Below, piece after piece: positions 6,181-60,310 of a stretch of 64,000 nt of DNA. The stretch comes from Chrysophaeum taylorii (taxonomy: Eukaryota; Sar; Pelagophyceae; Pelagomonadales; Pelagomonadaceae), in the NCBI GenBank assembly GCA_029834535.1, contig JAQMWT010000682.1, forward strand, positions 124,001 through 188,000, written 5' to 3'. Below the pieces are notes generated by a model, which saw nothing but the letters and a program-made list of their open reading frames with translations, was not told where the DNA came from and made no database searches. A program made the position numbers and the translations under genes. Each line of letters starts with the position of its first letter. The first letter of the stretch is position 1.

Positions 6181-6290
6181 CAGTATGTCGAAGGCTGTGC
6201 AGCTGTGGCGGCAACTCCAGCTCGCTAAGGCTTACCCCCACTCCTTAATTTAATCTGAGGCTTAAAGCTTGTACCCGTTCAACGGGACGC

Positions 6291-6624
6291 TGTAGTGGTT
6301 TTTCTCAGACACCCGCCCCTCTTGGCCAGGCCAGAGGCCTCAACAACCCTTTCTCCCAACCCGAACCGCGGGTGAAACCACCACACGCCCGATCTCAGCG
6401 TAAACACTCACGCCATCACGAAAATCGGACAATCAAAATGAGGGTAATAGCAAGACGACAGTAAGAACGCAATACAAATGCCTGGTACATTGGGTTCAGT
6501 GGAAGCGTAGGTGAGGATGTCAAGATGACACCCCCCCCATAATTGCAAGGTCAGTACCAGGGCAACAATCAGGGTAAGTCATGTGGCAGGCAGGCAAGTG
6601 GGGGGAATGGGCGTTACTGCCACA
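6291..6624 (-). repeat. 3' LTR of gypsy-like copy 1
   Basis: 334 bp bounded by TGTAGTGG and CTGCCACA, so with TGT...ACA ends. On the element's minus strand it begins just after a purine-rich AAGTAGGGGG tract, in polypurine-tract position. Its two halves recur at 58396-58603 and 60311-60439, which supports LTR identity. Copy 2 keeps only about 18 bp of it at 48229-48246. Confidence 0.7.
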
Positions 6625-7022
6625 GGAGCCCCCTACTTGAGATGAAGTCGTCCTCGACTTCAAGGGTGACGAAGGTCACGCTCACGAATGGTACGATAAG
6701 CTCGGTCAGCTACATCAGCAAGAACTTTGTTGCTGTGGAGGCCGAAGTTACTGACGAGGACATCGATTTCATCCGGGCGAAAATCAGTCACACAGGGTTC
6801 ACAGCCCTCCATGTTTGGTCGTAGGCGTGTGAAGCTACCTCCGTCAGGGTCCTTGTATTCTGGTCTTAAGCGTCGCTCGGCCAGAGGCTTAGTAGGATCA
6901 AAAACACGAGGATCATCGCGCGGTCCCAAATCGGTATAGTAGTGAAGCGCAACTGTATCATTGTCGTGATCGTATTCTTCATAGACTTCGGCAACGTAGA
7001 TACGCTTCTTCCACGCGTTGGA

Positions 7023-8253
7023 TCATCCTTTAACCCTGAAAATCACGAACTTACCATGTTTGAAACGGTCGCGGTCTGAAGGTAAATGCAGCGGGGCTGA
7101 AGAAGTGTCGATGGTTGGCACTTTCAAAGGCACAATTTGTTGTACAGATGCTACAACCGACTCAGCATCATCGTCGTTGACGTCCTGAGTTTCGTAAACG
7201 ACGGGAGAGATCTTTCTGGTAACTATGTAAGGCCCGCGCCAAATGGGACGTAGCTTGTGGCGCGTCTTAGGCACGAAACGCAGAACATAATCACCTGCGG
7301 AAAACTGGAGGTCAATTTGGTGGGCATCATAGTTGAGTTTTTGGCTCTCCTGTGCTTCGCGGTGAGCTCGTGTAACGAGTCGACTATAAAATTCAAACTT
7401 GTTCTTAAAGTCCACCAAAATCTGCTGACGCGATTGCATTGGATCACGCTGTTCACTCAAAAGATTGCAATCGGGTGGTAACAGGGGTTGCTTGCCAGTA
7501 CGCATCATGAAAGGTGAAATCTTCGTTCCCCGAAAAAAAAATGTACATCCTATTGTACATGAATGCGACATATGAGAGGAAATTCGACCAATCTGGCTGA
7601 CGCTGTTCATCGATCGCAGCTCTCAAGAAGGCTTTCATAAATCGGTTGACACGTTCAGTGTGGTTACTCTGAGGGTGATACGAGAGGGTAGTACGACAAC
7701 GTACGTTGAATTGACGAACAACTGTGCGGAATAACTTGTTCGCGAACTCATTTCCAGTATCCGTGACTATGCACCGTGGGAGACATCCCGCAAGTAAAAT
7801 CTTGTCCACAAACGCGTTCAAAATTGAATAATAATGCTTGATGTTGATCAGAGCCAATTTCAAGAAATGCGACGCTGCATCGTACATCGCGAGTATGTAC
7901 GTGCACAGGTCAGCGCCTCGCAGAGGTCCAATCAGACCCATACCTAAGACATAGCAATCTCCGACGCGATTCGGTTGACAAAGCAAGCCATGATGCTTAG
8001 GCATGGTGGATCGAATCTTCTGGCAAATAATGCAGGCATTGACGAGCTCATTAACTGACGATGAGACGTTGGCCACCAATACCGTTCTAAGATTTGATTC
8101 GCGGTGGAGTCTCGTCCTACATGGCCTCCGAACAATCCTCGGTGATGCATGGCGATTACACGCTTTCGCATAGACAGAGGGACCACGATAAAACGGTAAG
8201 ACGTTGAGAATCCGAATCATCGACCTTATACAGCACGTTGTTGTCAATTTCAT
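7023..8253 (-). pseudogene. Integrase region of gypsy copy 1
   Basis: The HHCC zinc-binding part (H-H-R-G-L-F-G-G-H-V-G-R-D-S and C-I-I-C-Q) and the rve core are readable in two frames. The core has the second catalytic Asp (V-T-D-T-G-N-E-F) and Glu (H-P-Q-S-N-H-T-E-R-V-N-R-F). The first catalytic Asp is Gly here (V-L-G-M-G-L-I-G-P-L) while copy 2 has Asp, so this integrase could not catalyse strand transfer. A 1-bp difference near 8070 also breaks the frame. The C-terminal part (7023-7610) continues as a variable SH3-like region. Confidence 0.85.
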
Positions 8254-8454
8254 ACGGTACGGATGACTGCTCGTTTCTGCTCAGAATCCAGATTTCGTCT
8301 GATGCGTTTGCATGTGTCATCTTCAGCTTGCTCTTTCGCTATCTCATCGAGAGTGATCTCATCCCCCGCTTGATCCGCAGAAGGGAGACGTTCGACGGAG
8401 TCAACTGGCTCAGACTCGTACGAGAATTGAGGCGGTTGTACGTTCTGTCGCGTA

Positions 8455-10450
8455 CTAACTGCTGCCATAGCTGCGGTGGGTCCGCTGTCCGTCGATATAG
8501 GCATCGTCACCGAAGAGAAGGTGAAACAAGCTGTGCCAGGTACATCGGTGGGGATTTCTTGGAAAATCAAAAAAAGCCTCATTGATCGGTTCCCCGTCTT
8601 CGTCTTTCTCGATCAACTTGTCGATAGGGTTGCGCGACAGACAATCCGGGATGCGCATGCCAGGGGAATTTCCAGGCTTGTATCCGAGCTCCCAGTCGAA
8701 CGCAGCAAGCCGCATAGCCCATCGCGCTAACTGTCCAGACGTGTGATTCTAATCCCGAAGAAACGTTAAATTACGATGATCCGTCTCTAATTTCGTCTGA
8801 TGACCTTCGATATAAAATCGGAATTTCTCAAGAGCGGAGAGTACTGCGAGGAGTTCCAAGCGCCGAGGATCATACTTCCTCATCGACTTAGGCACGGTTC
8901 GACTCCAGTACTCAATAACTCTCTCTTTTATTCTTTCTCTTCCATCGTCGTCAACGACTGGTACCTTTTGAAATAGGTAAGCACCCAACCCATGCACGGA
9001 AGCATCAGTTCGAATGTAGAAAGGCAACGAGTAATCAGGATGGTAGACACCCTTCGAAGTGACAATAGCCTCGATGATGGCATCCCAAGCTTCCTGACAC
9101 TCTTTCGTCCACTCGAATTTTACGTCCGGCAACGTCAGTTGTCTTGATGGCTCTGCAACCTTCGCAAAATTCCTTACATATCGCCAGCAAAAACTCCCCT
9201 TTCCAAGGAAAGACCGCACTTGCTTCTTAGGGTCAGCATCCGACAAAGTGCCAGGGAATGGCATGTGTCTGATGGCTTCTAAAGACCTCGGTTATGGAAG
9301 AAGTCCGTTCGGGGTGGATAAATGACCCAAAAACTCAATGACTTCTTGCATAAAATGAACTTCTTGATCTTGGCGCTGTACCCTTTCAAGGCGAGATGGG
9401 GAATAACTTGCACAAGGCACTGCAAGTGATTCTTTGTATCTGTGTGACAAGCGAGAATATCGTCGATATATGCCACGAGATCACGATATAGCCATTGCGA
9501 CAAGTCAGTGTTCAACTGCTTGCAAAACAAACTTCCGGCTGGTTTGACTCCCAAAGGTAGACGCATGTAGCTGTACGCTCCCAGAGGACTAGTGAAGGTG
9601 ACCACATCTTGTGCATCTAGCGACAATCGTAAATTGTGATAGCCCCAACGAATATCCAAACTGGAACGACAAAACTTGTCAATGAGAAACATCAGCGCGT
9701 CAGCCATGCTCACGCTCGGCCAGCTATCATCCTTGAGCAATGCATTGAGGCGCCGTAGGTCGACAGCTGCTCTGTGAGCATTGGAAGTGCCAGGCTCGGC
9801 ACCTTTCTTAGGCAACATCAAAATAGGGAAACCCCATGGAGAATTCGCAGGACGAATAACTCCGTCTCGGGTCCATGCTTCAATCTGCATCTGCAAACAT
9901 TCAATCTTTTCTTTCGACAACCGATATGGCGAGAGTTTGAGGGGAGTCGGGTTCTCTTCTTTGAACCGGAGCGTCACTTCAGGTGAATCAACAGGTCTCA
10001 TCACATCATCGAAAAATGCCCACGAATACGAGATTAAATGCTTCATCATCAGCTTCTCGTCATCATCTAAAGCAGGATGCTCTGTAATACCCAATTTAGT
10101 CATCACCTCTTCGACCTGCGCGACGGTCGGAGGGATGACTTGCATGCTCTCCTGATCCGCTAAATGAGGAGGCGTCACCGGTGAAGGTTGACCATGTTCG
10201 TCGTGAGGCGCGTCCGCCCACGGAGCGCCGTACTTATTGAAATACGCAGGTCGCTCCTTCGCGGTGCATTCTTCTTCAGCAGTTGCGGAGGGCTGGTTGC
10301 CCGCTTGGCTGCTCTGCATAACCGCAGTGGCGACGGTGCCCCCTGCAATAGATTGAGCCGTCCCAGGCGATGTAAGCGAAGGTGGTGGCGGGGTGGTGGG
10401 GGCAGCAGCCGATGGTGCAGGACTCGCAGGAGAATAGAGTTCATCGGGCG
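8455..10450 (-). pseudogene. Reverse transcriptase and RNase H of gypsy copy 1
   Basis: Palm motifs include S-L-D-I-R-W-G-Y-H-N-L-R and the catalytic box V-A-Y-I-D-D-I-L-A (about 9450-9480). Fingers motifs include N-S-P-W-G-F-P-I-L-M-L-P-K-K. RNase H follows, with Y-I-R-T-D-A-S-V-H-G-L-G-A-Y, R-R-L-E-L-L-A-V and T-D-H-R-N-L. Reading needs at least two frames: a 1-bp loss at about 9358 separates the RT palm end from the connection, and a TAG follows F-L-R-D at about 8748 where copy 2 has Ser. Confidence 0.87.
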
Positions 10451-10589
10451 AAATCCATGACACACTTCGAGTGGCAGGGTCGAGCGTTGGAATGCGCGAC
10501 TCTACAGCAAAAGGTGAAAACCGTAGAATATGGTGATCGGGTTGGGCTATCGTAGTCGTCGCAATATTCCGCAACTTACCCAAATTTCG

Positions 10590-11465
10590 AAGTGAAGGGT
10601 CAAACGAATTGTGCACTGCTAGTGCGATCCGCATCATAGTCGCGGGTGGCACCATACTGCCAAGCATCTTCATAGCTGCTGTCTCTGAGACTTTCTCACC
10701 CCATTGCCACGTAGCAGGAACGGTCATAATTTCCTGGTGCATCTGCAACGTGAGTGGACGTGTGTTCGAGAAATGAGGTCCCATTTGCAATTTGTTGCGC
10801 GTCACTGTGAAGGCAGGGCCGGTAGCCGGGCGCGTAGATGAGAAACTGTTCACTATAATGAGCGGGTGACCACCTGTAAATCCTAACGCTGGCCCAAAAC
10901 GGTCCCGTAAATATATTCGGTGGTACACGCGATAATAACGGCAGTTCCAAGCGAACATTGCAAGCAAGTAGGCGCGTGCGCGAGCACAGCAATTCTGGTG
11001 TGACACTATAAAAATCGACAATGCGCGGCACATAAAATTGGTGATGCACAAAAGGGATCACTGATGGTTCCTGCTCGAGCGTCCATCGTCCAATTACATA
11101 AGGTGCGTTGCGGAAATGACGCAGGACCCAAGAAGTAATAGTAGCGCCCTCGCGTGCGTCCCTGTAGTGTAAATTGGCAGTCGACCCATAGATACACGGC
11201 GGACTTGCGTGAAAATAAGAATGCTTCCAAAAATCTGAATGTAAATACGACAACACCAAGTCGTATGTACGACGATGAGATTTCCCTAACTCACGCAAAA
11301 CATAGGGAATCTTCGGAAAATTGAGCTCAAAGGTGGCTCGGGCTTGAGGACAAGCATCCAAAGCCAGGACAATGCGAAATGAACTGCCATATAGCTCAGT
11401 GCATCGCCGGATACCCAACGTTGATCCTCCAGCGCCAGCAAAGTAGACGACGACAAAGGTGTAGG
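10590..11465 (-). pseudogene. C5-cytosine DNA methyltransferase-like domain inside gypsy copy 1
   Basis: Motifs run in canonical order. Motif I is F-A-G-A-G-G-S-T-L-G-I (11413-11445). The motif II acidic residue is in V-L-A-L-D-A. A downstream N-F-P follows the helix, as in many 5mC enzymes. Motif IV is H-A-S-P-P-C, with the catalytic Cys codon at 11194-11196. A motif VI counterpart is W-T-L-E-Q-E-P-S-V (about 11060-11085), with motif VIII-like C-S-R-T-R-L-L-A (about 10965-10990). A motif IX-like G-P-A-F-T-V-T is at about 10800, then R-P-L-T and motif X L-G-S-M-V-P-P (about 10650). Motif I to X spans about 280 residues, so there is little room for a target-recognition domain. A 4-bp insertion at about 10911 splits the frame; copy 2 lacks it. 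Family knowledge: the motif IV Cys attacks C6 of cytosine and motif I binds S-adenosylmethionine. Methylation activity is inferred, not shown. Confidence 0.82.
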
Positions 11466-11663
11466 TGATGGCTATCCAAACCAAGGAGGCGTGCTTAGAT
11501 AGCAGCTCCTTAGCGGTCGCCTCCATCTCCATTTCTGGTGTTTTTTTCACTTCTTCATCTGGAGGTGGCTCAGGAGGAGGTCTGTCACTCAAGACATCCT
11601 CCTCGACTTCATTCTCGTCAACAGCAGCCGTGAGAGTCGCATGACAAACGTCCTCAGTGGCTT

Positions 11664-12838
11664 CTAGCTGCATGTTGACACATCCTTCATGCGGCATGAT
11701 CTCGCCTTCGACCACCAGGACTTCGGGGTCGATACCAATGGGTTCGCGTCACCAATGTGCTCTACAGCCACATGAACTTCGTTGGGCTCGTCGGAGCAAT
11801 ACGATGAATAGGAGCCAGGTACGATGCGGAGATCTGGGAGGAATGAACGATGAGGTCGGAATACTCGACCCTTTTCCAGCGGCACATCGCACTCCATCTC
11901 CAAGAAGTACGGTTGGCTTGGAAGCAGAAATCCAGTACTCGCCACGTACGCGAAATGAGGGATGATATCTTCCTCGTCTGCAGGGCATTTAAGTTGGTCT
12001 TCCGCTTTTTCAGCAGTCTGATCACCGGGATGAGCATGATGGTGACTCACTCTGACACGAATAGAGCGCAGCAGACTGTCATAACTCCACGGTTTACCAA
12101 CTGGCGTCCAAGTTCGCATATTCCCGTCTTGTATGGCGAGCTTAGCTGTCGGGAACATCTGCACTACCTGCGGAGTCGCATCGAATGCATCATTGTAAAG
12201 GACAATTCCATGCTGGCCTTGTGGCGAAGCGGAAGTCCCATTCTTGAGAACTCCGATGGTCACTTCAGAACGCTGGAAAATAGCTCTCTCTGTTGCATAA
12301 TCCGAAATCGTACCCAAGAGTCGCAATTCTCGTGCTCCTAATAGTAACTGCCCATTGGTTTGACCAACAAAGAACATGAGCAGTATGGATGTCGTTGGCA
12401 CCAAAAAGACCCGGAGAATGGCTCATTCTCGAACAGCAGCTCCCGAACCTCCTGACCCATTAAGAGTGCGAATCATAGAGAGGGGCTGACGATAGATGAT
12501 TTTGGCGTCACGATCAAGTTTGCGATACAAGCGATGATCGATGTAGGGGGAATCAGCCATGCCATCCTAACCGGCAGCGATGATGGAATATTTCGAACCA
12601 TCTAGCGAAGAGACAGCCACAGGCACATACGTCAAAGAGGCGGATCTCGTGCCATCGTACCTCACGGCTTTATTTTCACGATGGTCGGCATCCTGAGTGG
12701 TATTCAACGCAGTCTGAGGGCAGAAACTCTCGAAATCCGAAGAGATGGAAGGGTGAGCGGCGTAACGCTCGGCGCAGTCGTCCCTCGATAGCACTATATC
12801 CATAGCAACCAAGGTATCTTGTCCCACACGAACGATCG
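11664..12838 (-). pseudogene. Gag C-terminus and protease of gypsy copy 1
   Basis: Matches the second half of the Gag-Pro ORF of copy 2. The protease signature (A-G-L-D-G-M-A-D in copy 2) carries a TTG-to-TAG change immediately before the Asp here. Downstream the frame reopens (11664-12404) through a long region that joins, without a stop in this copy, to the acidic linker ahead of the methyltransferase. This suggests the ancestral element had one continuous Gag-Pro-linker frame here. The 5' part of Gag is missing beyond about 12838. Confidence 0.8.
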
Positions 12839-12840
12839 TG

Positions 12841-14831: not shown

Positions 14832-16921
<2,090 letters not shown>

Positions 16922-37460: not shown

Positions 37461-37492
<32 letters not shown>

Positions 37493-46989: not shown

Positions 46990-48228
46990 TGGACGGCGAC
47001 ACACCCGACCGAAACGGCCAGGACGCCGACGGCAGCACGCCCGAGAACGATATCGACCTCGATTCAACGTCGAGGGCGACGCCGCACTCTCCCCAAGGGA
47101 ATACCCGCCGCAGACTCGGCCGCGAGGTCGGCAGGGGAAACAACAGCGAGTCGCCGCCAGTCGAGGAACCCGCCCAGGAACCAAACACGCCAGAACCGGA
47201 AGGATCGGAACAAAAAGCCGAAACCGACAGGGAACCCCCGCGCGAAGCTCGGGAAGAGAGAAGCCTTTCCCCGACCGAATCGACCCCCCAGCACGAAACC
47301 GAAACAAGACCCCAGACGGTGGCAGGGGCATCCCTCTACAAAAAGAGGAGAAGCCAATCGACAAAGAGCCCGAGCCACCCGAAGAACGAAAAGAGCATCG
47401 AAAAGACGAGAAACGAGGGTTTTCCGAATTCCCGGCTCGAGAGCGCGAAGAAAGAGGCCGTCGGTTGCAGCGGAGAATCCAAGAGCTACCCGTCGATCCG
47501 CGAACGAGCCGACAGAGCTGGTGGTCGAGAGCCCACCGATTCTTCGCGGGACGCGCGCACGTATCGATGCCGATGGCAAGGACGGAGGACGAAGCCATGT
47601 GCATGCACTCCTCTTTCGCCTCCATCAACGCCGAAACGATCGGCAGAGACCTGCGCGTAATTAACTGCTTGGAAGCCGGTAGCCTGACGTTCATGCCCAT
47701 CCACGTGTTCAATAAACCGGGCGACTCATCGTATGCCGCGGTGATCGGTGTGGACGGAATGGCCGACGTCACCTACATCTGTCGCGACCTCGCACGCCTA
47801 ACGCGAAGGAGAGGGATGTTGCTGGATAGCGGCAAGCTGCCTTTCGAGCGAACGCTCTTCGGATCGGGAAAGAACACGACCTCGATTTCAGAGTGGATCG
47901 CCCTGCGAGTATCCGTTTCGGACGAAATGGCCGTACCGGTATTCACAATCGCAGCTTCACCCGCACCGAGAAATTAACACCTCAGTGCACCCCTTGCGTT
48001 ACCGACTTCGCCCCGGACGAGATCGACGTCCTGGTTCCCCGGTTCAAGCTCCAGGGGAAATCAGTTCCTCCTCCGATCGTCCAGCGCGTCAAAGATATTC
48101 TCGCGCATCGCGCGCGCCAAGAACAAGAACAACTCCAAGCTCAACAACGCGCTCATCAGACGCGCACTCCAGTTCCGTCCCTCGACGGTCCGCGCCGAAA
48201 CTCTCGTCAGTCGCACCACCGCAGGGAT
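46990..48228 (+). mobile_element. Internally deleted gypsy-related element (Gag/protease joined to Pol C-terminus)
   Basis: 47600-47977 encodes a relative of the copy 2 protease region: S-L-T-F-M-P-I against S-L-T-Y-V-P-V, V-D-G-M-A-D-V-T-Y-I against L-D-G-M-A-D-S-P-Y-I, and S-E-W-I-A-L-R-V-S against R-E-W-V-I-L-R-I-S. From about 47985 the sequence matches the extreme C-terminus of Pol (P-C-V-T-D-F-A-P-D-E-I-D-V-L-V, with R for A in copies 1 and 2). Methyltransferase, RT, RNase H and integrase are absent. 46990-47600 is a charged, Pro/Arg/Glu-rich Gag-like region. It ends against copy 2 in tail-to-tail orientation at about 48228. Confidence 0.75.
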
Positions 48229-48279
48229 GGGCGTTACTGCCACAGGTGCCCCCTACTTGAGATGAAGTCGTCCTCGACT

Positions 48280-48753
48280 TCAAGGGTGACGAAGGTCACG
48301 CTCACGAATGGTACGATAAGCTCGGTCAGCTACATCAGGAGGAACTTTGTTGCTGTGGAGGCCGAAGTTTTTGACGAGGACGTCGATTTCATCCGGGCGA
48401 AAATCTGTCACACAAGGTTCACAGCCCTCCATGTTTGGTCGTAGGCGTGTGAAGCTACCTCCGTCAGGGACCTTGTATTCTGGTCTTAAGCGTCGCTCAG
48501 CCAGAGGCTTAGTATGATCAAAAACACGAGGATCATCGCGCGGTCCCAAATCGGTATAGTAGTGAAGCGCAACTGTATCATTGTCGTGGTCATATTCTTC
48601 GTAGACTTCGGCAACGTAGATACGCTTCTTCCGCGCGTTGGATCGTCCTTTTACCCTGAAAATCACGAACTTGCCATGTTTGAAACGGTCGCGGTCTGAA
48701 GGTAAATGCAGAGGGGCTGAAGAAGTGTCGATGGTTGGCACTTTCAAAGGCAC
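48280..48753 (-). pseudogene. Pol C-terminal domain of gypsy copy 2
   Basis: Reads H-G-K-F-V-I-F-R-V-K-G then R-I-Y-V-A-E-V-Y-E-E-Y-D, H-Y-Y-T-D-L and a Cys-containing tail (C-E-P-C-V-T-D-F-R-P-D-E-I-D-V-L-V). The first part could be a chromo/BAH/SH3-like beta fold that guides targeting; the tail motif is conserved in all three elements of the window. Function unknown. Confidence 0.6.
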
Positions 48754-48769
48754 AATACAGATACTACAA

Positions 48770-50176
48770 CCGACTCAGCATCATCGTCGTTGACGTCCTG
48801 AATTTCGTAAACGACGGGAGAGATCTTTCTGGTAACTATGTAAGGCCCGCGCCAAATGGGCCGTAGCTTGTGGCGCGTCTTAGGCACGAAACGCAGAACA
48901 TAATCACCTGGGGGAAACTGGATGTCAATTTGGTGGGCATCATAGTTGAGTTTTTGGCTCCCCTATGCTTTGCGGTGAGCTCGTGTAACGAGTCGACTAT
49001 AAAATTCAAACTTGTTCTTAAAGTCCACCAAAATCTGCTGACGCGATTGCGTTGGATCACGCTGTTCACTCAAAAGATTGCAATCGGGTGGTAACAGGGG
49101 TTGCTTGCCAGTACGCATCATGAAAGGTGAAATCTTCGTTCCCGGAATGTATATCTTATTGTACATGAATGACACATATGGGAGGAAATTCGATCAGTCT
49201 GGCTGACGCTGTTCATCGATCGCAGCTCGCAAGAAAGCTTTAATGAATCGATTGACACGCTCAGTATGATTACTTTGAGGATGATACGGAAGGGTAGTAC
49301 GATAACGTACGTTGAATTGACGAACAAACGTGCGAAATAACCTGTTCGCGAACTCATTTCCATTATCCGTGACTATGCACCGTGGGAGACATCCCTCAAG
49401 TAAAATCTTGTCCACAAACGCGTTCAAAATCGAATAATCATGCTTCGTGTTGATCAGAGCTAATTTCAAGAAATGTGATGCTGCATCGTACATTGCGAGT
49501 ATGTACGTGTACAGGTCAGCGCCTCGCAGAGGTCCAATCAAATCCATACCTAGGACATAGCAGTCTCCGACGCGATTCGGTTGACAGAGCAAGCCATGGC
49601 GCCTAGGCATGGTGGATCGAATCTTCTGGCAAATAATGCAGGCATTGACGAACTCATTAACGGATGATGAGACGTTTGGCCACCAATACCGTTCTAAGAT
49701 TTGATTCGCTGTGGAATCTCGTCCTACATGGCCTCCGAACAAGCCTCGGTGATGCATGGCGATCACACGCTTCTGCATAGACTGAGGACCACAATAAGAC
49801 GTTGAGAAGCTGAATCATCGACCTTATACAATACGTTGTCATCAATCTCATATGGTACGGATGACTGCTCGTCTTGATCTTTCTGTTCAGAGTCGAGCTT
49901 TTGTCTGATGCGATTGCATGTTTCATCCTCAGCTTGTTCTTTCGCTATCTCATCGAGAGTGATCTCATCCTCCGCTTGATCCGCAAAAGGGAGACGTTCG
50001 ACGGAGTCAACTGGCTCAGATTCGTACGAGACTTGATGCGGTTGTACGTTCTGTCGCGTACTAACTGCTACCATAGCTGCGGTGGGTCCGCTGTCCGTCA
50101 GCATAGGCATCATCACCGAAGAGAAGGTGAAGCAAGCTGAGCCAGGGACATCGGTGGGGATTTCTTGGAAAATCAA
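48770..50176 (-). pseudogene. Integrase and upstream linker of gypsy copy 2
   Basis: The linker ends in V-L-Y-K-V-D-D-S-A-S-Q-R-L-I-V-V. The zinc-binding H-H-R-G-L-F-G-G-H and C-I-I-C-Q follow, then an rve core with all three acidic positions: M-D-L-I-G-P-L, V-T-D-N-G-N-E-F and H-T-E-R-V-N-R-F. Small indels split it into frames 49763-50176, 49194-49778 and pieces below 49190. It keeps the catalytic triad that copy 1 has lost. Confidence 0.87.
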
Positions 50177-50179
50177 AAA

Positions 50180-51790
50180 ACTTCATTGATCGGCTCCCCG
50201 TCTTCATCTTTCTCGATCAATTTGTCGATAGGGTTGCGCGACAGACAATCCGGAATACGCATGCCAGGGGAGCTTCCAGGTTTGTATCCGAGCTCCCGGT
50301 CGAACGCAGCAAGCCGCATAGCCCATCGTGCTAACTGTCCAGACGTATGATTCGAATCCCGCAGAAACGTTAAATTACGATGATCCGTCTCTAACTTCGA
50401 TGACCTTCGATATAAAATCGGAAATTTTCGAGAGCAGAGAGTACTGCGAGAAGTTCCAAGCGCCGAGGATCGTACTTCCTCATCGACTTAGGCACAGTTC
50501 GACTCCAGTACTCGATAACTCTCTCTTCGATTCTTTCTCTTCCATCGTCGTCAACGACTGGTACTTTTTGAAATAGGTAAGCACCCAACCCATGCGCGGA
50601 AGCATCAGTTCGAATGTAAAAAGGTAACGAGTAATCAGGATGATAGACGCCCTTCGAAGTGACAATAGCCTCGATGATGGCATCCCAAGCTTCCTGACAC
50701 TCTTTCGTCCACTTGAATTTCACGTCCGGCAACGTCAGTTGTCTTAATGGCTCTGCAACTTTCGCAAAATTCCTTACATAACGCCGGCAAAAGCTCCCCA
50801 TTCCAAGGAAAGATCGCACTTGCTTCTTAGGGTCAGCATCCGACAAAGTGCCAGGAATTGGCATGTGTCTGATGGCTTCTAAAGACCTTGGTGATGGAAG
50901 AAGTCCGTTCGGGGTAGATAAATGACCCAAAAACTCAATGACTTCTTGCATAAAATGAATCTTCTTGATCTTGGCGCTGTACCCCTTCAAGGCGAGATGG
51001 GGAATAACTTGCACAAGGCACTGCAAGTGATTCTTTGTATCTGCGTGACCGGCGAGAATATCGTCGATATATGCCACGAGATCACGATATAGCCATTGCG
51101 ACAAGTCAGTGTTCAACTGCTTGCAAAACAAACTTCCGGCTGGTTTGACTCCCAAAGGTAGACGCATGTAGCTGTACGCTCCCAGAGGACTAGTGAAGGT
51201 GACCACATCTTGTGCATCTAGCGACAATCGTAAATTGTGATAGCCCCAACGAATATCCAAACTGGAACGACAAAACTTGTCAATGAGAAACATCAACGCG
51301 TCAGCCATGCTCACACTCGGCCAGCTATCATCCTTGAGCAATGCATTGAGGCGCCGTAGGTCGACAGCTGCTCTGTAAGCATTGGAAGTGCCAGGCTCGC
51401 ACCTTTCTTAGGCAACATCAAAATAGGGAAACCCCATGGAGAATTCGCGGGACGAATAACTCCGTCTCGGGTCCATGCTTCAATCTGCATCCGCAAACAT
51501 TCAATCTTTTCTTTCGACAACCGATATGGCGAGAGTTTGACGGGAGTCGGGTTCTCTTCTTTGAACCGGAGCGTCACTTCAGGTGAATCAACAGGTCTCA
51601 TCACATCATCGAAAAATGCCCACGAATACGAGATTAAATGCTTCATCATCAGCTTCTCGTCATCATCTAAAGCAGGATGCTCTGTAATACCCAATTCAGT
51701 CATCACCTCTTCGACCTGCGCGACGGTCGGAGGGATGACTTGCATGCTCTCCTGATCCGCTAAATGAGGACGCGTCACCGGTGAAGGTTG
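50180..51790 (-). pseudogene. Reverse transcriptase and RNase H of gypsy copy 2
   Basis: RT contains N-S-P-W-G-F-P-I-L-M-L-P-K-K, S-L-D-I-R-W-G-Y and Y-I-D-D-I-L-A. RNase H contains Y-I-R-T-D-A-S-A-H-G-L-G-A-Y and R-R-L-E-L-L-A-V. A 1-bp deletion at about 51398 breaks the fingers/palm junction. The layout RT then RH then integrase identifies a Ty3/gypsy-type order. Confidence 0.88.
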
Positions 51791-52189
51791 ACCATGTTCG
51801 TCATGAGGCGCGTCCGCCCACGGAACGTCGTACGTATTGAAATACGCTGGTCGCTCTTTCGCGGTGCCTTCTTCTTCAGCAGTTGCGGAGGGCTGGTTAT
51901 CAACTTGGTTGCTCTGCATAACAGCAGTGGCGACGGTGCCCCCTGCAAAAGATGAAGCCGTCCCAGGCGATGTAGCTGAAGGTGGTGGCGGGGTGGTGGG
52001 GGCAGCAGCTGATGGAGCAGGACGCGCAGGAGAGTAGAGATCATCGGGCGCAATCCATGATACACTTCGAGTGGCAGGGTCGAGCGTTGGAATGCGCGAC
52101 TCTACAGCAAAAGGTGAAAACCGTAGAATATGGTGATCGGGTTGGTATATCGTAGTCGTCGCAATATTCCGCAATTTACCCAAATTTCG

Positions 52190-53055
52190 AAGTGAAGGGT
52201 CAAACGAATTGTGCACTGCTAGCGCAATCCGCGCCATAGTCGCGGGTGGCACCATACTGCCAAGCATCTTCATAGCTACTGTCTCGGAAACTGTCGCACC
52301 CCATTGCCGCGTAGCAGGAACGGTCATAATTTCCTGGTGCATCTGCAACGTGAGTGGACGGGTGTTCGAGAAATGAGGTCCTAAGCGTTACCGTGAAGGC
52401 AGGGCCGATAGCCGGGCGCGTAGATGAGAAACTGTTCACTATAATGAGCGGGTGACCACCTGTAAATCCCAACGCTGGGCCAAAACGGTCCCGTAAATTC
52501 GGTGGTACACGCGATAATAACGGCAGGTTCAAGCGAACATTGCACGCAAGTAGGCGCGTGCGCGAGCACAGCAATTCGGGTGTAATACTATAAAAATAAA
52601 CGATACGCGGCACATAAAATTGGTGATGCACAAAAGGGATCACTGATGGTTCCTGCTCGAGCGTCCATCGTCCAATCACATAAGGTGCGTTGCGGAAGTG
52701 ACGCAGGACCCAAGAAGTAATAGTAGCGCCTTTGCGTGCGTCCCTGTAGTGCAAATTGGCAGTCGATCCATAGATACACGGCGGACTGGCGTGAAAATAA
52801 GAATGCTTCCAAAAATCTAAGTGTAAATACGACAACACCAGGTCGTATGTACGACGATGAGATTTCCCCAACTCATGCAAACATAGGGAATCTTCGGAAA
52901 ATTGAGCTCAAAGGTGGCTCGGGCTTGAGGACAAGCATCCAAAGCCAGGACAATGCGAAATGAACTGCCATATAGCTCATTGCATCGCCGGATACCCAAC
53001 GTTGATCCTCCAGCGCCAGCAAAGTAGACGACGACAAAGGTGTAGGTGATGGGTA
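52190..53055 (-). pseudogene. C5-cytosine DNA methyltransferase-like domain inside gypsy copy 2
   Basis: Same module as copy 1. Motif I F-A-G-A-G-G-S-T-L-G-I is near 53000-53025. Motif IV H-A-S-P-P-C is near 52775. The motif VI counterpart is L-E-Q-E-P-S-V, with motif VIII-like C-S-R-T-R-L-L-A and motif IX-like G-P-A-F-T-V-T. Motif X is L-G-S-M-V-P-P near 52250. A 1-bp deletion (about 52880) lies between motifs I and IV, and a deletion of about 20 bp (about 52385) precedes R-P-L-T. Copy 1 is intact at both places. The catalytic Cys and the glycines of motif I are retained in both copies. Confidence 0.82.
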
Positions 53056-53640
53056 TCCAAACCAAGGAGGCGTGCTTAGATAGCAGCTCCTTAGCAGTCG
53101 CCTCCATCTCCATTTCTGGTGTTTTTTTCACTTCTTCATCTGGAGGTGGCTGAGGACGAGGTCTGTCACTCAAGACATCCTCCTCGACTTCATCTTCGTC
53201 AACAGCAGCCGTAAGAGTGGCATGAGACACGTCATCAGTGGCTTCTAGCTGCATGTTGACACATCCTTCATGCGGCATGATCTCGCCTTCGACCACCGGG
53301 ACTTCGGGGTCGATACCAATGGGTTCGTCACCAATGTGCTCCACAGCCACATGAACTTCGTTGGGCTCATCAGCACAATACGATGAATAGAAACCAGGTA
53401 CAAGACGGAGATCTTGGAGGAGTGACCGATAAGGTCGGAATACGTGACCCTTTCCAGCGGCACATCGCACTCCATCTCCAAGAAGTACGGTTGGTTTGGA
53501 AGAAGAAATCGAGTACTCGTCATGTACGCGAAATGAGGGATGATATCTTCCTCGTCTACAGGGCATTCAAGTTGGTCTTCAGCTTTTCCAGCAGTCTGAT
53601 CACCGGGAGGAATGTGATGGTGATTCGCTCTGATACGAAT

Positions 53641-56496
53641 TTAACGCAATAGACTGTCATAACTCCACGGTTTACCAACTGGCGTCCAAGTTTGGACATT
53701 TCCGTATTGCACAGCAAGCTTAGCTGTCGGGAACATCTGCACTACCTGCGGAGTCGCATCGAATGCATCATTGTAAAGGACAATTCCATGCTGGTCTTGT
53801 GGCGAAGCGGAAGTCCGATTCTTGAGAACTCCAATGGTCACTTCAGAACGCCGAAAAATAGCTCTGTCTGTCGCATAATCCAAAATCGTACCAAAGAGTC
53901 GTAATTCTCGTGCTCCTAATAGTAACTGCCCATTCGTTTGACCAACGAAGAACATAAGCAACATGGATGTCGTCGGCACCAAGGAGATCCGGAGAATGAC
54001 CCATTCTCGAATAGCAGCTCCCGAACCTCCTGACCCATTTAGAGTACGAATCGTAGGGAGTGGCTGACGATAGATGATTTTGCCGTCACGATCAAGTTTG
54101 CGATACAAGCGGTGATCGATGTAGGGGGAATCAGCCATGCCATCCAAACCGGCAGCGATGATGGAATATTTCGAACCATCTTGCGAAGAGATAGCCACAG
54201 GCACATACGTCAAAGAGGCGGATCTCGTGCCATCGTACCTTACGGCTTTATTTTCACGATGGTCGGGATCCTGAGTGATATTCAACGCAGTCTGAGGGCA
54301 GAAATTCTCGAAATCCGAAGAGATGGAAGGGTGAGCAACATAACGCTCGGCACAGTCGTCCCTCGATGGCACTATATCCATGGCAACCAAGGTATCTTGT
54401 CCCACTCGAACAATCGCATACCCCAATTCGTCACGATTATCTTCGTCTTCCGAGAGAACTCGAGATGCAACTCCAGTCACTTCGGTACTTTGCTCCTGCT
54501 CCTCCACCCATGCATCTTCAGTGATGACCAAAAAGGAAGGAGGTTCCATGGGGTCACCAGGGGAATAGCCTTCTGCAGAGAAGCTATCATCATCGCCTCC
54601 AACCCCGTCATCGTCATACATGCTGCCCTCCATGAGCTCAGAATACTGCACAGTGCAGTAGTCCGCTCGCTTAGTGTCATCCTGATCTTCGCCAAGCACT
54701 TCAAGCCACTGAGCGGCGACACCATCATTGTGCTGGCTAGGGTTCGCTCTCTGAGACTGTCGCCCTCTACCCGGCAGAGCCGTCTGCTGTGCCTGACGAA
54801 TCAAGTTCATCGTGTTGAGAGCCGTAGTCAGATCCTCCAGGCGCACCGAGGTCTGAGCGGTCCGCTGCACTGCGGGCTGCCTTCGGACCACCTGTTGTTG
54901 AGAGCCTGCAACCAAACGCTGCTGAGTGCCTGCAACCAGCTGGTGTTGACCTGCACCTGGCACCAGTGCTGCTGTGTAGACCACCTGCGGCTGTTGCACA
55001 ACGCGCGGCGCCAGCTGAGTCACTGAAGCTTGTCCTGCTGCAGCTAAAAGCGTCCGTCGGTATTGCTCCTGTCCCTCTGGCGTTGCTGGAAAACCCGCAG
55101 TCGTCAACGTCTGAGCAGCACGCCTCTTTCTCGAGGGATTCTCCGGCACAGGACACACACCGTTGTCGTGGTTAAAACTACCATGCCGGCCGCAACTGAG
55201 GCACGTCTTAATTGCTTGACGCGCATGGTTATCTATCCCCTGAGGTAGCCAGGTTCCAACTCCCGAGTCAGTAACATAACCAACCCGTTGGACTGGCTGC
55301 AACTGCTGCCTCTGCTGCTCTCTCTTCATCCGTGGTGCGCGCTCCTTTCCTTTCTCCTTCTTAATCGCCTCTTCGATGTTGGCAGTAGGGTTGGCTTCCA
55401 GAATCTTGGAAATCTGGATAGTCAATTGAATGACATCGTTGAGGGTGAGAGTAGATGCTTTCATATGCGGTGAGGCCTGAGCAAGTTCGACGCTCGTCCG
55501 CAAGCGCTCAGAATTGAGACCAGCAATAAAGTGCGAACGGAACGCAGCCGGATCAGTATCGCGACCTGACATTGCTCTCCACTGGCCGAATTTCTGCACC
55601 CATCGCGCGATATACTTATTCAATGGCAAATTCCCTTGCCGTAAATTGAACCATTCACGTTCAAGCTCCTCAACCGTAGCCCGAGGTGGACAAGGAAGCT
55701 TCGTCGCCTCTTGCATAGCATCCAGACGGTCCTCATCATGCTGGCGCAACTCTTTCATTGTGATGGTCCCATCCTTGTATTGTTTCCACATCTGCGGCCG
55801 TTCAACTTCCCACTTGCGATAAGCTTCCATAGGGGCGAGTTGATACTCGCCTCCAATCACATTCATCGCTATTGAGGGTTTATCAATCTTTCCTTCCATC
55901 ATACGCCGCAATTGCATCCACCACGCGTCCACCTCATCACGGTCCTTGGTAATTGGCCCCGTGAGATTCGAAAATGTGATACGTGTCATACCAGCAGCTC
56001 CCTTCTTGACACGAAGTATCTTTTCTTCGTCACGAGGACGCGCCGAACCGGGGTCAGTATGATGGTGCGGTGTAGGCTCCGGTCGACTTCGCGGTGGCTG
56101 ATCGTCGGTCAATGCCGATACAGCGTCATCATCGTCGTCGGGCGTAACACGCGTAGCATTCGGAGAGGTTGGCCGTGCCTCTTGAGCATGCGCCCGCATG
56201 GATTCCTCCACCATTCGCCGAAGTCGATCGTTGTCGATCCGCTGCCGCTCCACTTCTGAGCGTTGTTGTTGAGCGTCGCGGCGGGTGTTCTCAAGTTCAC
56301 GTATGACTTGCTCAATCTGCGACTGGTACATCTCGAATCGTTCGTTGATGGTCTGCAGAACCTCGGGGTCGACATCCACGCGAAAATCTGTCGCTCTCGT
56401 ATTCGCAGATGGTGGCCTAGGAGGTGCACTCTCCTCTGGTCCACGCATCGCCGTAAACGGTCCGGGTTCCGCTCGAGATGACTCCGTAGCATTCAT
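53641..56496 (-). CDS. Gag-protease ORF of gypsy copy 2
   Basis: 951 residues from ATG at 56496. A Gln/Arg-rich coiled coil (about 40-100) precedes a retrotransposon Gag core with W-W-M-Q-L-R-R-M, E-L-E-R-E-W-F-N-L-R-Q-G and F-R-S-H-F-I-A-G-L. A variant zinc knuckle C-L-S-C-(x7)-H-(x4)-C lies near residue 430, then Gln-rich sequence. The C-terminal protease-like segment has A-G-L-D-G-M-A-D-S-P-Y-I where retropepsins have D-T/S-G-A-D, and a downstream hydrophobic L-L-L-G-A-R-E-L stretch resembling the retropepsin beta-strand region. The ORF ends with TAA at 53641, where copy 1 reads Ser. The native polyprotein may therefore have continued into the linker and methyltransferase. This is the only long intact frame of the element. 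Confidence 0.85.
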   Translation of the reverse strand: MNATESSRAEPGPFTAMRGPEESAPPRPPSANTRATDFRVDVDPEVLQTINERFEMYQSQIEQVIRELENTRRDAQQQRSEVERQRIDNDRLRRMVEESMRAHAQEARPTSPNATRVTPDDDDDAVSALTDDQPPRSRPEPTPHHHTDPGSARPRDEEKILRVKKGAAGMTRITFSNLTGPITKDRDEVDAWWMQLRRMMEGKIDKPSIAMNVIGGEYQLAPMEAYRKWEVERPQMWKQYKDGTITMKELRQHDEDRLDAMQEATKLPCPPRATVEELEREWFNLRQGNLPLNKYIARWVQKFGQWRAMSGRDTDPAAFRSHFIAGLNSERLRTSVELAQASPHMKASTLTLNDVIQLTIQISKILEANPTANIEEAIKKEKGKERAPRMKREQQRQQLQPVQRVGYVTDSGVGTWLPQGIDNHARQAIKTCLSCGRHGSFNHDNGVCPVPENPSRKRRAAQTLTTAGFPATPEGQEQYRRTLLAAAGQASVTQLAPRVVQQPQVVYTAALVPGAGQHQLVAGTQQRLVAGSQQQVVRRQPAVQRTAQTSVRLEDLTTALNTMNLIRQAQQTALPGRGRQSQRANPSQHNDGVAAQWLEVLGEDQDDTKRADYCTVQYSELMEGSMYDDDGVGGDDDSFSAEGYSPGDPMEPPSFLVITEDAWVEEQEQSTEVTGVASRVLSEDEDNRDELGYAIVRVGQDTLVAMDIVPSRDDCAERYVAHPSISSDFENFCPQTALNITQDPDHRENKAVRYDGTRSASLTYVPVAISSQDGSKYSIIAAGLDGMADSPYIDHRLYRKLDRDGKIIYRQPLPTIRTLNGSGGSGAAIREWVILRISLVPTTSMLLMFFVGQTNGQLLLGARELRLFGTILDYATDRAIFRRSEVTIGVLKNRTSASPQDQHGIVLYNDAFDATPQVVQMFPTAKLAVQYGNVQTWTPVGKPWSYDSLLR

Positions 56497-56544
56497 CGCA
56501 CGTTCGTAGGGTCGTGCGTACGGGAACGTCGGCTCACCCGGTCT

Positions 56545-56808
56545 TTAAGTTGCGTCTGGCGCAGCCGTAGCTCCCCCTTCGCCGCCGCGTGGATCCGGAA
56601 GGATGACCACGCTTGGGGGGCTGTCGAGGCTATCAGATGATCTTGCCTCTCTTCCTATGCCACTTTCCTCGGCTTCCGGCCGTTGAAAGAGCGTACTGAA
56701 CGGTGTTCTTCCAATAGACGCAAATGGAGTCCCTGCACTGAATCGTTGCAGACGCTCCTGTGCGTCCCGAAACCACTGCGATCGTTCTGTCATTGGCCTC
56801 TCTGCCAT
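56545..56808 (-). other. Leader ORF in frame with Gag, separated by TAA
   Basis: 87 codons from ATG at 56808. It is in the same frame as the Gag ATG at 56496 with one TAA (56545-56547) and 16 sense codons between. It could be an N-terminal extension of Gag lost by a nonsense mutation, or a uORF. It contains R-S-Q-W-F-R-D-A-Q-E-R-L-Q-R-F. Confidence 0.4.
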
Positions 56809-56870
56809 GATCGCGATTTGCCCGGATAATAGGTTTGTTCCGGACGTTCACAACTCACTTGTTGTATTCT

Positions 56871-57217
56871 TTTCGTCAGACGACAAGTGCAGGCCAGGAA
56901 GTTCACCTACTCCCAATCTCTAACCCCAGCAAAAAGTTCACCTGTTTCTGTCAAGTTCACCTAGTCCAATCTCTAACCCCAGCAAATTCGGCGTAAGCCC
57001 ACTCGTGTTCACACCCACTCACCCCACTCTCCTTCGAGCTCGTCGCTCTCACCTCCGCCAATCCAAGCTGCTTTGATCCGTACACGCCGCTAGCCTTTGC
57101 GTTCACTCTAAAAACCCCAGTAAGTTCACTTGGTCCCAGTAAGCTCACCTGGTCACTAAGTTCACCTAGTCCCAATCTCAAACCCCAGTAAGTTCACCTG
57201 GACCCAGTAAGTTCACC
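56871..57217. repeat. TAAGTTCACCTGGTCCC repeat array
   Basis: Starts GACAAGTGCAGGCCAGGAAG and consists of scattered AAGTTCACCT(G/A)(G/T)TCCC units and CCCAATCTCTAACCCCAG blocks. The same start and units occur at 58613-58940 and, inverted, at 61130-61230. It always adjoins the C-terminal end of a helicase fragment. Confidence 0.7.
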
Positions 57218-57815
57218 TACAAAGCGCGTGTAGACGCCGGGAGGGGGCTTATCGGTATTGCGCAGCACGCGTGGGGTAGGGTGGAGTCGTCGACTTAGAA
57301 GAGGATATCCTCGGGGTTGCCGATCGACAGAGAGCCACGTAGAGCTGGACGTGGCAGAAGACGGGCTTCGCCAAGAGGACGCCGACCTCGCGGGGCGTCT
57401 GGCCCTGGCTCTTGGTGATCGTTTGGCGTCGGCGGGCCTTACGGGATACAGGTTGGAGGAGCCTCGGTGACAACGACACGATCGATCATGTATCTGGTAC
57501 CATTGCAGTGGCCGTGCGACGGGTCGAGGTTGCGAAGACTTTAAGCTCGCGATCAAAGTCAGCATGCCGTTGGTTGTCAGGGAGTTCAAAACTCGACTGT
57601 AAAGAGCGAGGCGTCGTCTTCCGACCCAGCCTAGTCAGCCGAAAAGAACTCCGACGCCTCGTCTCCGGGAAAAAAAGGCCGCGGTCATGCGCGCGTTGTC
57701 AGCATCGACAACATCGTTTCGACGGGGCGTGAGAATGGCGCGCTGAAAGAGCCGCCGCGGGTCGTGGAAATAGTCTGCGAGGTCGCCGTAGACGGCTTGG
57801 AGGATCACTGTCTGG
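57218..57815 (-). pseudogene. Helitron/PIF1-like helicase C-terminal fragment, copy 1
   Basis: Minus-strand reading, with frame changes. A-V-Y-G-D-L-A-D-Y-F-type start, R-A-I-L-T-P-R-R-N-D-V-V (cf. R-A-I-L-T-P-x-N in PIF1/Helitron helicases), L-R-D-L-D-P-S-x-x-x-C-N-G-T-R type segment, S-Q-G-Q-T, and P-V-F-C-H-V-Q-L-Y-V-A-L-C-R (cf. P-V-F-S-H-G-Q-L-Y-V-A-L-S-R). Walker A and any Rep domain are absent. It is a decayed fragment. Confidence 0.75.
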
Positions 57816-57931
57816 CTCTCGCGCCTACCTGATCCTTACTCTCGCGCCTACCTGATCCTTACCCTAATTCGAGGGACGAACAGACTCCCCACACACACCC
57901 CCCCCTCTTAGCAGTCGACATTTAAAGACAA

Positions 57932-57978
<47 letters not shown>

Positions 57979-58005
57979 TCTGTCGATTAGTAGTTAAGAT
58001 TGCCG
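57816..58005. repeat. Tail of helicase repeat with CAGA microsatellite
   Basis: CTCTCGCGCCTACCTGATCC occurs twice, then CACACACCCCCCCC, TTAGCAGTCGACATTT, (ACAG)n at 57935-57975 and TCTGTCGATTAGTAGTTA. It is matched by 59526-59690 and in part inverted at 61698-61736. Confidence 0.75.
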
Positions 58006-58377
58006 GCAGCCGTCTGACTACTGCGCGCTGTACCGGTGCGCTGGTCTTACGGAAGCACTTGCCTTGCGCGTGAAGACTATGGACGGCCTTCCCGGTGTTG
58101 TCGCTCGCCGTCAGGGAGGTGGTCTGCCTCGCGCGAGCTAAGTTAGGCCTTACTCTGTCTTTGCCTCGTAAAAAGGTCTTACGATGTTTGCCTCAATGAG
58201 TCGTAGTGACTCCGCTCCCCGTTCGATCCGAATCACGTAAAATGAACCCCGCGGCGGTACCCGTGATCCTCTGGATCTTCACCCACAAATGCGTCGGCTT
58301 CGCACTCACTCGACCGTTACGAACCGACTCGCCGCCGAAAAACAGGAGATCGATAGTCCGGGAGTTGGACTATCGAT
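58006..58377. other. Probable leader sequence of gypsy copy 2, with hairpin
   Basis: No gene. A perfect 11-bp stem (58349-58359 with 58367-58377; ATCGATAGTCC/GGACTATCGAT) with a 7-nt loop lies next to the PBS-like site. The stretch lies between the helicase repeat and the LTR. Confidence 0.4.
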
Positions 58378-58395
58378 TCCCGTTTCTGAGACCAC
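58378..58395 (-). promoter_or_regulatory. Candidate tRNA primer-binding site of gypsy copy 2
   Basis: On the minus strand, one base after the TGT...ACA LTR end, the sequence reads TGGTCTCAGAAACGGGA. It begins with TGG, the complement of tRNA CCA, as PBS sites do. I cannot name the tRNA. Confidence 0.45.
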
Positions 58396-58603
58396 TGTAG
58401 TGGTTTTCTCAGATACCCGCCCCTCCTGGCCGGACCGGGGGCCTCAACAACCCTTTCTCCCAACCCGAACCGCGGGCGAAACCACCACACGCCCGATCTC
58501 AGCGTAATACCTCACGCCATCACGAAATCGGACAATCAAAAGAGGGTAATATCAAGAAGACAGCAAGAAATCAATACAAATGCCCGGTACATTGGGTCCA
58601 GTG
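58396..58603 (-). repeat. LTR half, proximal part of the probable 5' LTR of copy 2
   Basis: Matches 6291-6504 from TGTAGTGGTT to GGGTCCAGTG, then the homology jumps to 60311. The direct repeat CCAGTG flanks the interruption (58598-58603 and 60310-60315). Confidence 0.75.
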
Positions 58604-59942
58604 TAGGGTCGGACAAGTGCAGGCCAGTAAGTTCACCTACTCCCAATCTCTAACCCCAGTAAGTTCACCTGGTCCCAGTAAGTTTCATATAAGTTCACCT
58701 GGTCAGTAAGTTCACCTAGCTCACACCAACTACTTTGAGCTCGTCGCTCTCGCCTCCGCCAATCTAAGCTGCTTTGATCCGCACGCGCCGCCAACCTTTT
58801 AGTTTACTCTAAAAACCCTTTACTCTAAAAACCCCAGTATGTTCACCTGGTCCCAGTTTCACCTGGTCACTCAGCTCACCTAGTCCCAATCTCCAACCCC
58901 AGTAAGTTCACCTGGTCACAGTAAGTTCACTTACAGTGCGCGTGTAGACGCCGGGAGGGGGCTTATAGGTATTGCGTAGCACGTGTGGGGTAGGGTGGAG
59001 TCGTCGACTCAGAAGAGCATATCCCCGGGGTTGCTGATCGACAGAGAGCCACGTAGAGCTGGACGTGACAGAAGACGGGCTTGGGCGAGAGGACGCCGAC
59101 CTCGCGGGGCGGCTGGCCCTGGCTCTTGGTGATCGTTTGGCGTCGTCGGGCCTTAAGGGATACAGGTTGGAGGAGCCTCAGTGACACGACACGATCGATC
59201 ATGTATCTGGTACCGTTGCAGTGGCCATGCGACGGGTCGAGGTTGCGAAGACCTTAAGCTCGAGATCAAAGTCAGCATGCCGTTGGTTGTCAGGGAGTCG
59301 AAGACTCGACTGTAAAGAGCGAGGCGTCGTCTTCCGACCCAACCTAGTCTGCCTAAAAGAACTCCGACGCCTCGTCTCCGGGAAAAAATGGTCGCGGTCA
59401 TGCGCGCGTTGTCAGCATCGACAACATCGTTTCGACGGGGCGTGAGAATGGCGCGCTGAAAGAGCCGCCGCGGGTCGTGGAAATAGTCTGCGAGGTCGCC
59501 GTAGACGGCTTGGAAGATCACTGTCTGGCTCTCGCGCCTACCTGATCCTTACTCTCGCGCCTACCTGATCCTTACCCTAAATCGAGGGACAGACAGACTC
59601 CCCCCACACACCCCCCCTCTTAGCAGTCGACATTCCAAGACAGACAGACAAACAAACAGACAGACAAACATCTGTCGATTAGTAGTTAGGATAAGAAAAC
59701 GAGACTAGCCCGCGCCGCAACGACGGGTCCTACAACGCGTGGGCTTTTCCCTTTTTTTGCGTGAGGGGACGAAAGGATGCCGACTTCACTATGGGGACTA
59801 GTTCCATCGCGACGATCTCGCGGCGTGGCGGCACATACTGCTTGAGTACAAATGAACATAGCTCAGCGATCCGTTGAGTATGTCTTAGTACAAACTGAAA
59901 CATAGTTAACGGCTCGTACGAACTTTCTTATCCGACCCTGTC
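58604..59942 (-). mobile_element. Nested element with near-perfect 13-bp inverted ends and helicase remnant
   Basis: Ends are AGGGTCGGACAAG (58605-58617) and CTTATCCGACCCT (59927-59939): 12 of 13 bases pair as inverted repeats. Inside are the TTCACCT array, a helicase C-terminal fragment on the minus strand, the ACAG tract, and about 240 bp (59690-59930) of unassigned sequence. The inverted ends plus helicase recall Helentron-type elements, but the enzyme is decayed and the Rep domain missing. Confidence 0.55.
58943..59525 (-). pseudogene. Helitron/PIF1-like helicase C-terminal fragment, copy 2
   Basis: Same segment as 57218-57815: A-V-Y-G-D-L-A-D-Y-F-H-D, R-A-I-L-T-P-R-R-N-D, N-S-L-T-T-N-G-M, T-I-T-K-S-Q-G-Q, P-V-F-C-H-V-Q-L-Y-V-A-L-C-R. 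The frames are interrupted. Confidence 0.75.
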
Positions 59943-59948
59943 CAGTGG

Positions 59949-60309
59949 ACTAACTAACTTCAGACCTCTCCCGAGCATATGGGAGCCAGGCCGGACCGAC
60001 AGGAGCCAGTCCGAAATCACGGGCCTGGGGACGAGGAGCGCCGAAAGGCTCGGCCGGCGGAGAGTGACCATCAAGCTTGTCGCCATGCGACGAGGAGACC
60101 GCGATATGACTGACAACCAACTCGTCGATAACCTTCCGTCTTCACCCCCCGGCCATACCCCGTCCCACTGCGGACGTTCCGGCTGCCAACCGGCCCGCCC
60201 GGGAGGCGAACAGGCGAACAGGTGCCAACCTACGCCGGGAGGGCGGATGCCCTCGCAAGGCTCAGGATTCATGAGGCACCGTCCTCCATCGCAACCATGC
60301 GGTCGGCGA
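59949..60309 (-). repeat. Interspersed repeat B, copy 2 (inverted)
   Basis: Reverse complement of 61335-61697, starting GACTAACTAACTTCAGACCT. It is flanked by CCAGTG on both sides (59943-59948 and 60310-60315), consistent with insertion into the LTR with a 6-bp duplication. Confidence 0.75.
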
Positions 60310-60310
60310 C

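Follow-up and report, generated by a model that had tools for sequence, protein, structure and literature searches.

In a 64,000-nucleotide window of the genome of the pelagophyte Chrysophaeum taylorii, we found that a domain which is almost certainly a C5-cytosine DNA methyltransferase (MTase) is a regular component of the Pol polyprotein in a large clade of Gypsy-type LTR retrotransposons; its identity, its place in Pol, the selection acting on it, its spread and its occasional loss can all be read from the sequence. C5-MTases share a set of motifs comprising FxGxG (motif I), the catalytic cysteine (motif IV), a glutamate (motif VI) and RxR (motif VIII), followed by motifs IX and X. The window holds two decayed remnants, both from a single type of element ~9.7 kb long, and in each of them motifs I, IV, VI, VIII, IX and X occur in order on the minus strand. 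The domain of copy 1 (10551..11481) carries FAGAGG (11425-11442), ALDACPQ (11344-11364), ASPPC (11194-11208), LEQE (11068-11079), SRTRLL (10966-10983), RPLTLQ of motif IX (10743-10760) and LGSMVPP (10644-10664), and that of copy 2 (52151..53062) carries FAGAGG (53006-53023), ASPPC (52776-52790), LEQE (52650-52661), SRTRLL (52548-52565), RPLTLQ of motif IX (52343-52360) and LGSMVPP (52244-52264), the ends of both domains being set by comparison with an open copy elsewhere in the genome (L039). The preliminary description of this DNA had named such motifs in this order for copy 1 and the same module for copy 2; all of them were located, together with motif IX. Its statement that the target-recognition domain is nearly absent is roughly right, as copy 1 has ~68 codons between motif VIII and motif IX. 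A single frameshift (~10903-10926) interrupts the MTase of copy 1; copy 2 has two, near 52865-52885 and 52371-52391. Two pieces of copy 1 match the Pfam profile PF00145 co-linearly (profile positions 7-73, E 0.0045, and 260-321, E 0.0013) and the first and last pieces of copy 2 match it at E 0.015 and 0.071, all window pieces scoring lower than the curated cut-off of 22 bits; the middle piece of copy 2, which has the PPC, gave no PF00145 match.

Naturally open copies, unlike the single window pieces, exceed this cut-off. L039 scored 35.1 bits (E 1.3e-8), L040 37.4 bits (E 2.6e-9) and a piece of L041 25.1 bits, indicating that the MTase match is well beyond chance; these three are among several copies in open frames of 1800-2100 codons. 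A member of a sister clade, L059, scored 26.1 bits, and another sister copy, L060, taken alone gave no PF00145 match. Matches to C5-MTase models were also obtained in PADLOC and PHROGs. Regular expressions detected motifs I, IV and VI in 42, 42 and 43 of 44 stretches, respectively, motif VIII in 37 and motif X in 36, two copies being represented twice in this count. Across four Gypsy lineages, whose MTases are 37-83% identical, the motif cores F.G.GG, PPC, EQE, R.R and PP are invariant. The usual C5-MTase forms have ENV as motif VI and Q after the catalytic PPC; the Gypsy elements have EQE, and I or V after the PPC. In a search of solved structures the four-lineage Gypsy MTase set matched known C5-MTases weakly (E 0.025), and A2 and window copy 1 alone gave no match. 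A DNMT1-RFD search was empty and, as no control responded either, uninformative.

The order of domains in the element is gag, protease-like region, MTase, RT, RNase H and integrase (IN), and what marks it as Gypsy (Ty3) is the Pol order RT-RNase H-IN together with an rve-type integrase. In both window copies the MTase follows the protease region and precedes RT, supporting the placement between protease and RT of a Gypsy-type Pol that had been proposed from the window, with the protease assignment tentative (one motif and its position). The only copy examined for both ends, C421, has a direct LTR pair of ~332 bp, 93.4% identical and spanning 9.66 kb, with CACA on both sides as a candidate target-site duplication. 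Copy 1 (6289..12839, minus strand) is 5'-truncated and 93.3% identical to the C421 copy over 6564 columns; on the same strand it retains a 3' LTR (6290..6620; 91.1% identical to the C421 5' LTR across 337 columns), an integrase in two frames (7026..8280; matches under the cut-off to rve, E 0.017, and to Integrase_p58_C, E 8.8e-6), an RNase H (8752..9291; RT_RNaseH_2 87.4 bits, RT_RNaseH 76.1 bits) and an RT region (9282..10142; RVT_1 39.4 bits, with YIDD at 9450-9470). Copy 2 (48227..60435, minus strand) is 95.8% identical to the C421 copy over 8708 columns, with LTR and 5' pieces in addition, is interrupted by two nested insertions (~60310-58603 and ~57998-56895) and keeps only ~20 nt of its 3' LTR. 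Its gag and protease region on the minus strand is open over 967 codons (53644..56544; a weak Retrotrans_gag match, E 0.13, below cut-off) and includes the tentative protease-like motif LDGMADSPYID (54115..54147); the protease region of the open copies L039 and L040 had no Pfam match. Copies 1 and 2 share 93.6% identity across 6.2 kb. In L059 a single open frame, 2999 codons within the stretch examined, runs from the protease-like region through IN (Integrase_H2C2 66.9 bits, rve 46.0 bits). At 57145-60991, repeat units in direct and inverted orientation lie within and beside the two insertions of copy 2.

Matches were counted in the 70.8-Mb assembly of which the window is part. The window MTase has at least 159 matches (150 of 833 candidates scored; some elements counted more than once), and the L059 MTase of the sister Gypsy clade at least 125 (with 125 of 1035 candidates scored); an in-frame stop is absent from 100 of these 125. 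An RT search, in which 150 of 1010 candidates were scored, returned at least 150 matches, of which 96 show 77-100% identity and 54 show 64-66%; L059 and L060, the two members of the latter group that were examined, both carry the MTase. These genome-wide MTase and RT matches rule out an insertion private to the two window copies. L059 (3858-4811) and L060 (3940-4926) are 84% identical in RT and 46% in the MTase, a gap that may reflect fast divergence or domain exchange.

For 74 of the 96 RT copies in the 77-100% clade, an MTase match lies 300-2600 nt upstream of RT. Twelve of the remaining 22 were examined: three (L067, L068, L071) contain MTase pieces, three (L069, L070, L072) had no MTase in the stretch examined, L072 having an MTase match listed 4.3 kb upstream of RT, and in six (L061-L066) the protease side is joined to the RT side and the MTase is cleanly absent. 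The preliminary description would have given up its reading if a wider set of copies lacked the segment; the majority carry it, and the lack is real for at least six young deleted copies. A 5' breakpoint is common to four of the six and another to two, the 3' junction is common to all, and L062, L064 and L065 are in frame across the deletion junction. The comparison of junctions used eight L040-type copies (L073-L080, with a gap within L078) that were chosen at places where the MTase was listed and are not a sample. We read the absence in L061-L066 as secondary loss. Given that their RTs are 99-100% identical to that of L040 and among its closest RT relatives, such forms multiplied recently, and the loss of the MTase from six young Gypsy copies by in-frame deletion indicates that it is not strictly required in cis; these copies may depend on partner copies for the enzyme (trans-complementation). 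Splicing as the source of MTase-less copies is not supported, no GT-AG being present at the junctions. The 3' junction contains one base that fits neither side of intact copies.

The Gypsy MTase is very probably maintained by selection. Between L039 and L040, dN/dS (Nei-Gojobori) was 0.057 for the MTase (299 codons) and 0.044 for RT, it was 0.061 for the MTase of L041 and L040 and 0.062 for that of the sister pair L059-L081, these ratios being approximate since dS of MTase and RT in the main and sister comparisons is at least 1.5, near saturation. In the L039-L040 comparison the protease region gave 0.159 and the linkers 0.281 and 0.425, with dS saturated in gag. The close pair L039-L041, with 13 synonymous and 5 non-synonymous changes in the MTase, gave 0.121 for this domain. 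The constraint on the Gypsy MTase is nearly as tight as that on the reverse transcriptase.

A second family of elements (family B) is Copia-type, with the order PR-MTase-IN-RT, and carries after its protease a C5-MTase very unlike the Gypsy one. Two copies, L043 (2096-7951) and L044 (203-5806), are open over 1952 and 1868 codons, respectively, with a DGGAS protease motif recognized by eye, a C5-MTase (TLPCQ, VENV), an integrase and a Copia RT. PF00145 (36.3 bits) lies upstream of rve and RVT_2 (135.8 bits) in L043, the rve match being weak (E 0.0013, below cut-off), and no Pfam protease match was found in this copy. For family B at least 155 matches were counted, 150 of 638 candidates having been scored, and its MTase gave dN/dS of 0.087-0.245 (21 pairs from seven copies) and a weak match to known C5-MTases in the solved-structure search (E 0.011). 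A profile comparison of the Gypsy and Copia MTases gave no match, and neither did the control comparison of host DNMT2 with DNMT5. The two families are likely to have captured their MTases independently.

Among the 57 PF00145 matches listed genome-wide, 55 are family B places and the other two are host enzymes, a DNMT2 (L042; E 4e-39 to human DNMT2) and a DNMT5 (L002; E 2e-134 to Cryptococcus Dnmt5); the PF00145 search behind this list scored 123 of 474 candidates. Both are PF00145 enzymes like the element MTases, but they are cellular genes with ENV as motif VI, and the MTases of the elements have diverged widely from the two. The Gypsy MTase profile aligned with host DNMT2 across 146 columns (E 8e-5, probability 61%) and did not match host DNMT5 (E 0.3), a ranking of little weight because the same comparison detected nothing between DNMT2 and DNMT5 themselves. 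A gene for a chlorophyll-binding protein adjoins DNMT2, indicating that the host is a photosynthetic alga. In the account of PMC9998398, DNMT5 is tied to methylation maintenance, pelagophytes are among the stramenopiles that have DNMT5a, and DNMT3 is missing from most stramenopiles, diatoms excepted.

The element copies show no CpG hypermutability. In 32 alignments to L039, in which window copy 1 (L009, W1) and the C421 copy (L020, L041) were each entered twice, transitions affected 268 of 13628 CpG sites and 723 of 38764 other C/G sites. When L041 was the reference and no copy was repeated, 128 of 1171 CpG and 316 of 3073 other sites were changed in at least one copy; the corresponding counts were 15 of 868 and 31 of 2123 for the L040 type and 130 of 1042 and 361 of 2999 for family B. 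An excess that had seemed present at ACT and GCT shrank when every site entered the count a single time. The CpG test carries little information, as many copies are alike and the sampled GC-rich host stretches are mostly CpG-rich; its outcome argues against heavy mutagenic methylation of resident copies and has little bearing on cDNA.

For catalysis, substrate, timing and benefit we infer the following course, drawing for cDNA methylation in the particle on the analogy with SymbioDIRS-Dnmt3 of Symbiodinium. Pol would be packed into the virus-like particle, where the MTase, free or fused to RT, would methylate the element cDNA during or after its conversion to double strands; the new copy would then reach the nucleus with 5mC already present, host DNMT5 would maintain the mark, and the methylated copy would resemble resident DNA, making the insertion less harmful. 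We regard this whole explanation, in which the C5-MTase of the Gypsy Pol methylates particle cDNA and DNMT5 keeps the mark, as evenly poised between right and wrong, and that cDNA methylation is the role for which the MTase is selected as a reasonable proposal that stops slightly short of an even chance. Against the cDNA role stand the EQE of motif VI and the I or V after PPC, which depart from the usual forms, the continued spread of MTase-deleted Gypsy forms, for which trans-complementation could account, and the lack of a CpG-decay signature in the copies. It is a rather unlikely extension of this explanation that Gypsy and Copia elements, having separately captured different C5-MTases after the protease, are the main source of new 5mC in this genome, which DNMT5, a maintenance type and the only host DNA methyltransferase detected among the candidates scored, would copy.

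That the MTase marks the element's own copies for silencing by the host, limiting damage so that a few hundred copies persist, was raised as a possibility in PMC5890265 and would suit the many matches, a large share of them in open frames, in a 70.8-Mb genome with a DNMT5; but a purely restraining domain should vanish fast under competition between copies, and instead its dN/dS is ~0.06, so we consider such self-restraint unlikely, with the qualification that MTase-minus derivatives do arise. Somewhat less probable still is a DNMT2-like role in which the domain methylates or binds element RNA or primer tRNA and not DNA. The profile match to DNMT2 and not to DNMT5, the only two host enzymes compared, and the absence of a CpG decay signature from the DNA would agree with an RNA role, and RNA methylation is raised for SymbioLINE-Dnmt in PMC5890265; however, the failure of the DNMT2-DNMT5 control takes most weight from the DNMT2 match, and the position beside RT suits a DNA role equally.

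We are similarly doubtful that the domain is an inactive MTase fold serving Pol folding, nucleic-acid binding or polyprotein spacing. The variant motif VI, the short stretch between motifs VIII and IX and the spread of in-frame MTase deletions could be so explained, but the catalytic cysteine, the motif I glycines, the motif VI glutamate and the motif VIII arginines do not vary among the four diverged lineages, and the linkers of the same Pol are far less constrained than the MTase. That there is no methyltransferase at all, the motifs being a chance resemblance or an annotation artefact, is extremely improbable: single window pieces do fall under the PF00145 cut-off, but the scores of L039 and L040, the motif order, the conservation and the dN/dS fit a real enzyme domain and already contradict this reading at the sequence level.

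The MTase-bearing elements described here extend a known phenomenon, retrotransposons that carry DNMTs, to another algal genome. Captured DNMTs had been mentioned in the preliminary description for dinoflagellates and charophytes, and PMC5890265 does report them in dinoflagellate LINE and DIRS elements and in Gypsy elements of Klebsormidium, along with de novo CG methylation by retrotransposon DNMTs. The suggestion that an insertion at this position of a Gypsy-type element in a probable stramenopile seems new needs correcting to the extent that a DNMT in a Gypsy Pol, KnitGypsy-Dnmt3 of Klebsormidium nitens, has been published there. As here, KnitGypsy-Dnmt3 has a C5 DNMT within the Gypsy Pol ORF, occurs in several copies and is under purifying selection (Ka/Ks <0.2). 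It differs in having DIRS-like repeats in place of the ordinary direct LTR pair seen in one copy here (C421), in a domain assigned to DNMT3 (PMC5890265), ours, in another alga, being called C5-MTase only, and in that MTase-deleted derivatives exist in the present elements. SymbioDIRS-Dnmt3 and SymbioLINE-Dnmt of Symbiodinium resemble the present case in the hundreds of retrotransposon DNMTs per genome, and SymbioDIRS-Dnmt3 also in having DNMT and RT in one Pol ORF; SymbioDIRS DNMTs are reported to methylate CG (PMC5890265). The two are, respectively, a DIRS element with a tyrosine recombinase and a LINE, unlike the integrase-type (rve-type) LTR elements here. PMC12344493 (2025) mentions DNMT3 members in LTR Copia and DIRS elements of streptophytes and dinoflagellates; the Copia mention bears on family B, the 2018 paper cited for it says Gypsy, and the passage names no further hosts. 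A 2019 opinion article (PMC6338049) refers to Gypsy and DIRS elements with adenine or cytosine methylases in groups including stramenopiles. In the open-access literature searched we found no description of a single genome with MTase-bearing elements of both Gypsy and Copia type, nor of MTase-deleted sublineages. Candidate relatives in viral_contigs and genome_contigs were pattern matches, none of them confirmed, and as these are collections of viruses and prokaryotes, absence there says little.

Two Gypsy clades and a Copia family carry an MTase, and their matches number in the hundreds in a genome of just 70.8 Mb. The combination of tight selection with clean loss in a young sublineage offers a way to test whether self-methylation benefits the element and shapes the host methylome, with the MTase-deleted sublineages as natural controls, and hence a natural test of why parasitic DNA should carry a mark usually used for its silencing. 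If the host relies on DNMT5, the elements also bear on the source of new methylation in lineages without DNMT1 or DNMT3.

Other features of the window include a 4276-codon ORF at 25466-38296 in which repeats frequently recur at intervals of 384 or 444 nt and the first 945 codons match a PT disordered repeat, a CAP59-type mannosyltransferase and a sulfatase domain in a single frame at 18240-21035, and a strong AT skew (-0.47, -0.50) over 4 kb at 14001-18000.
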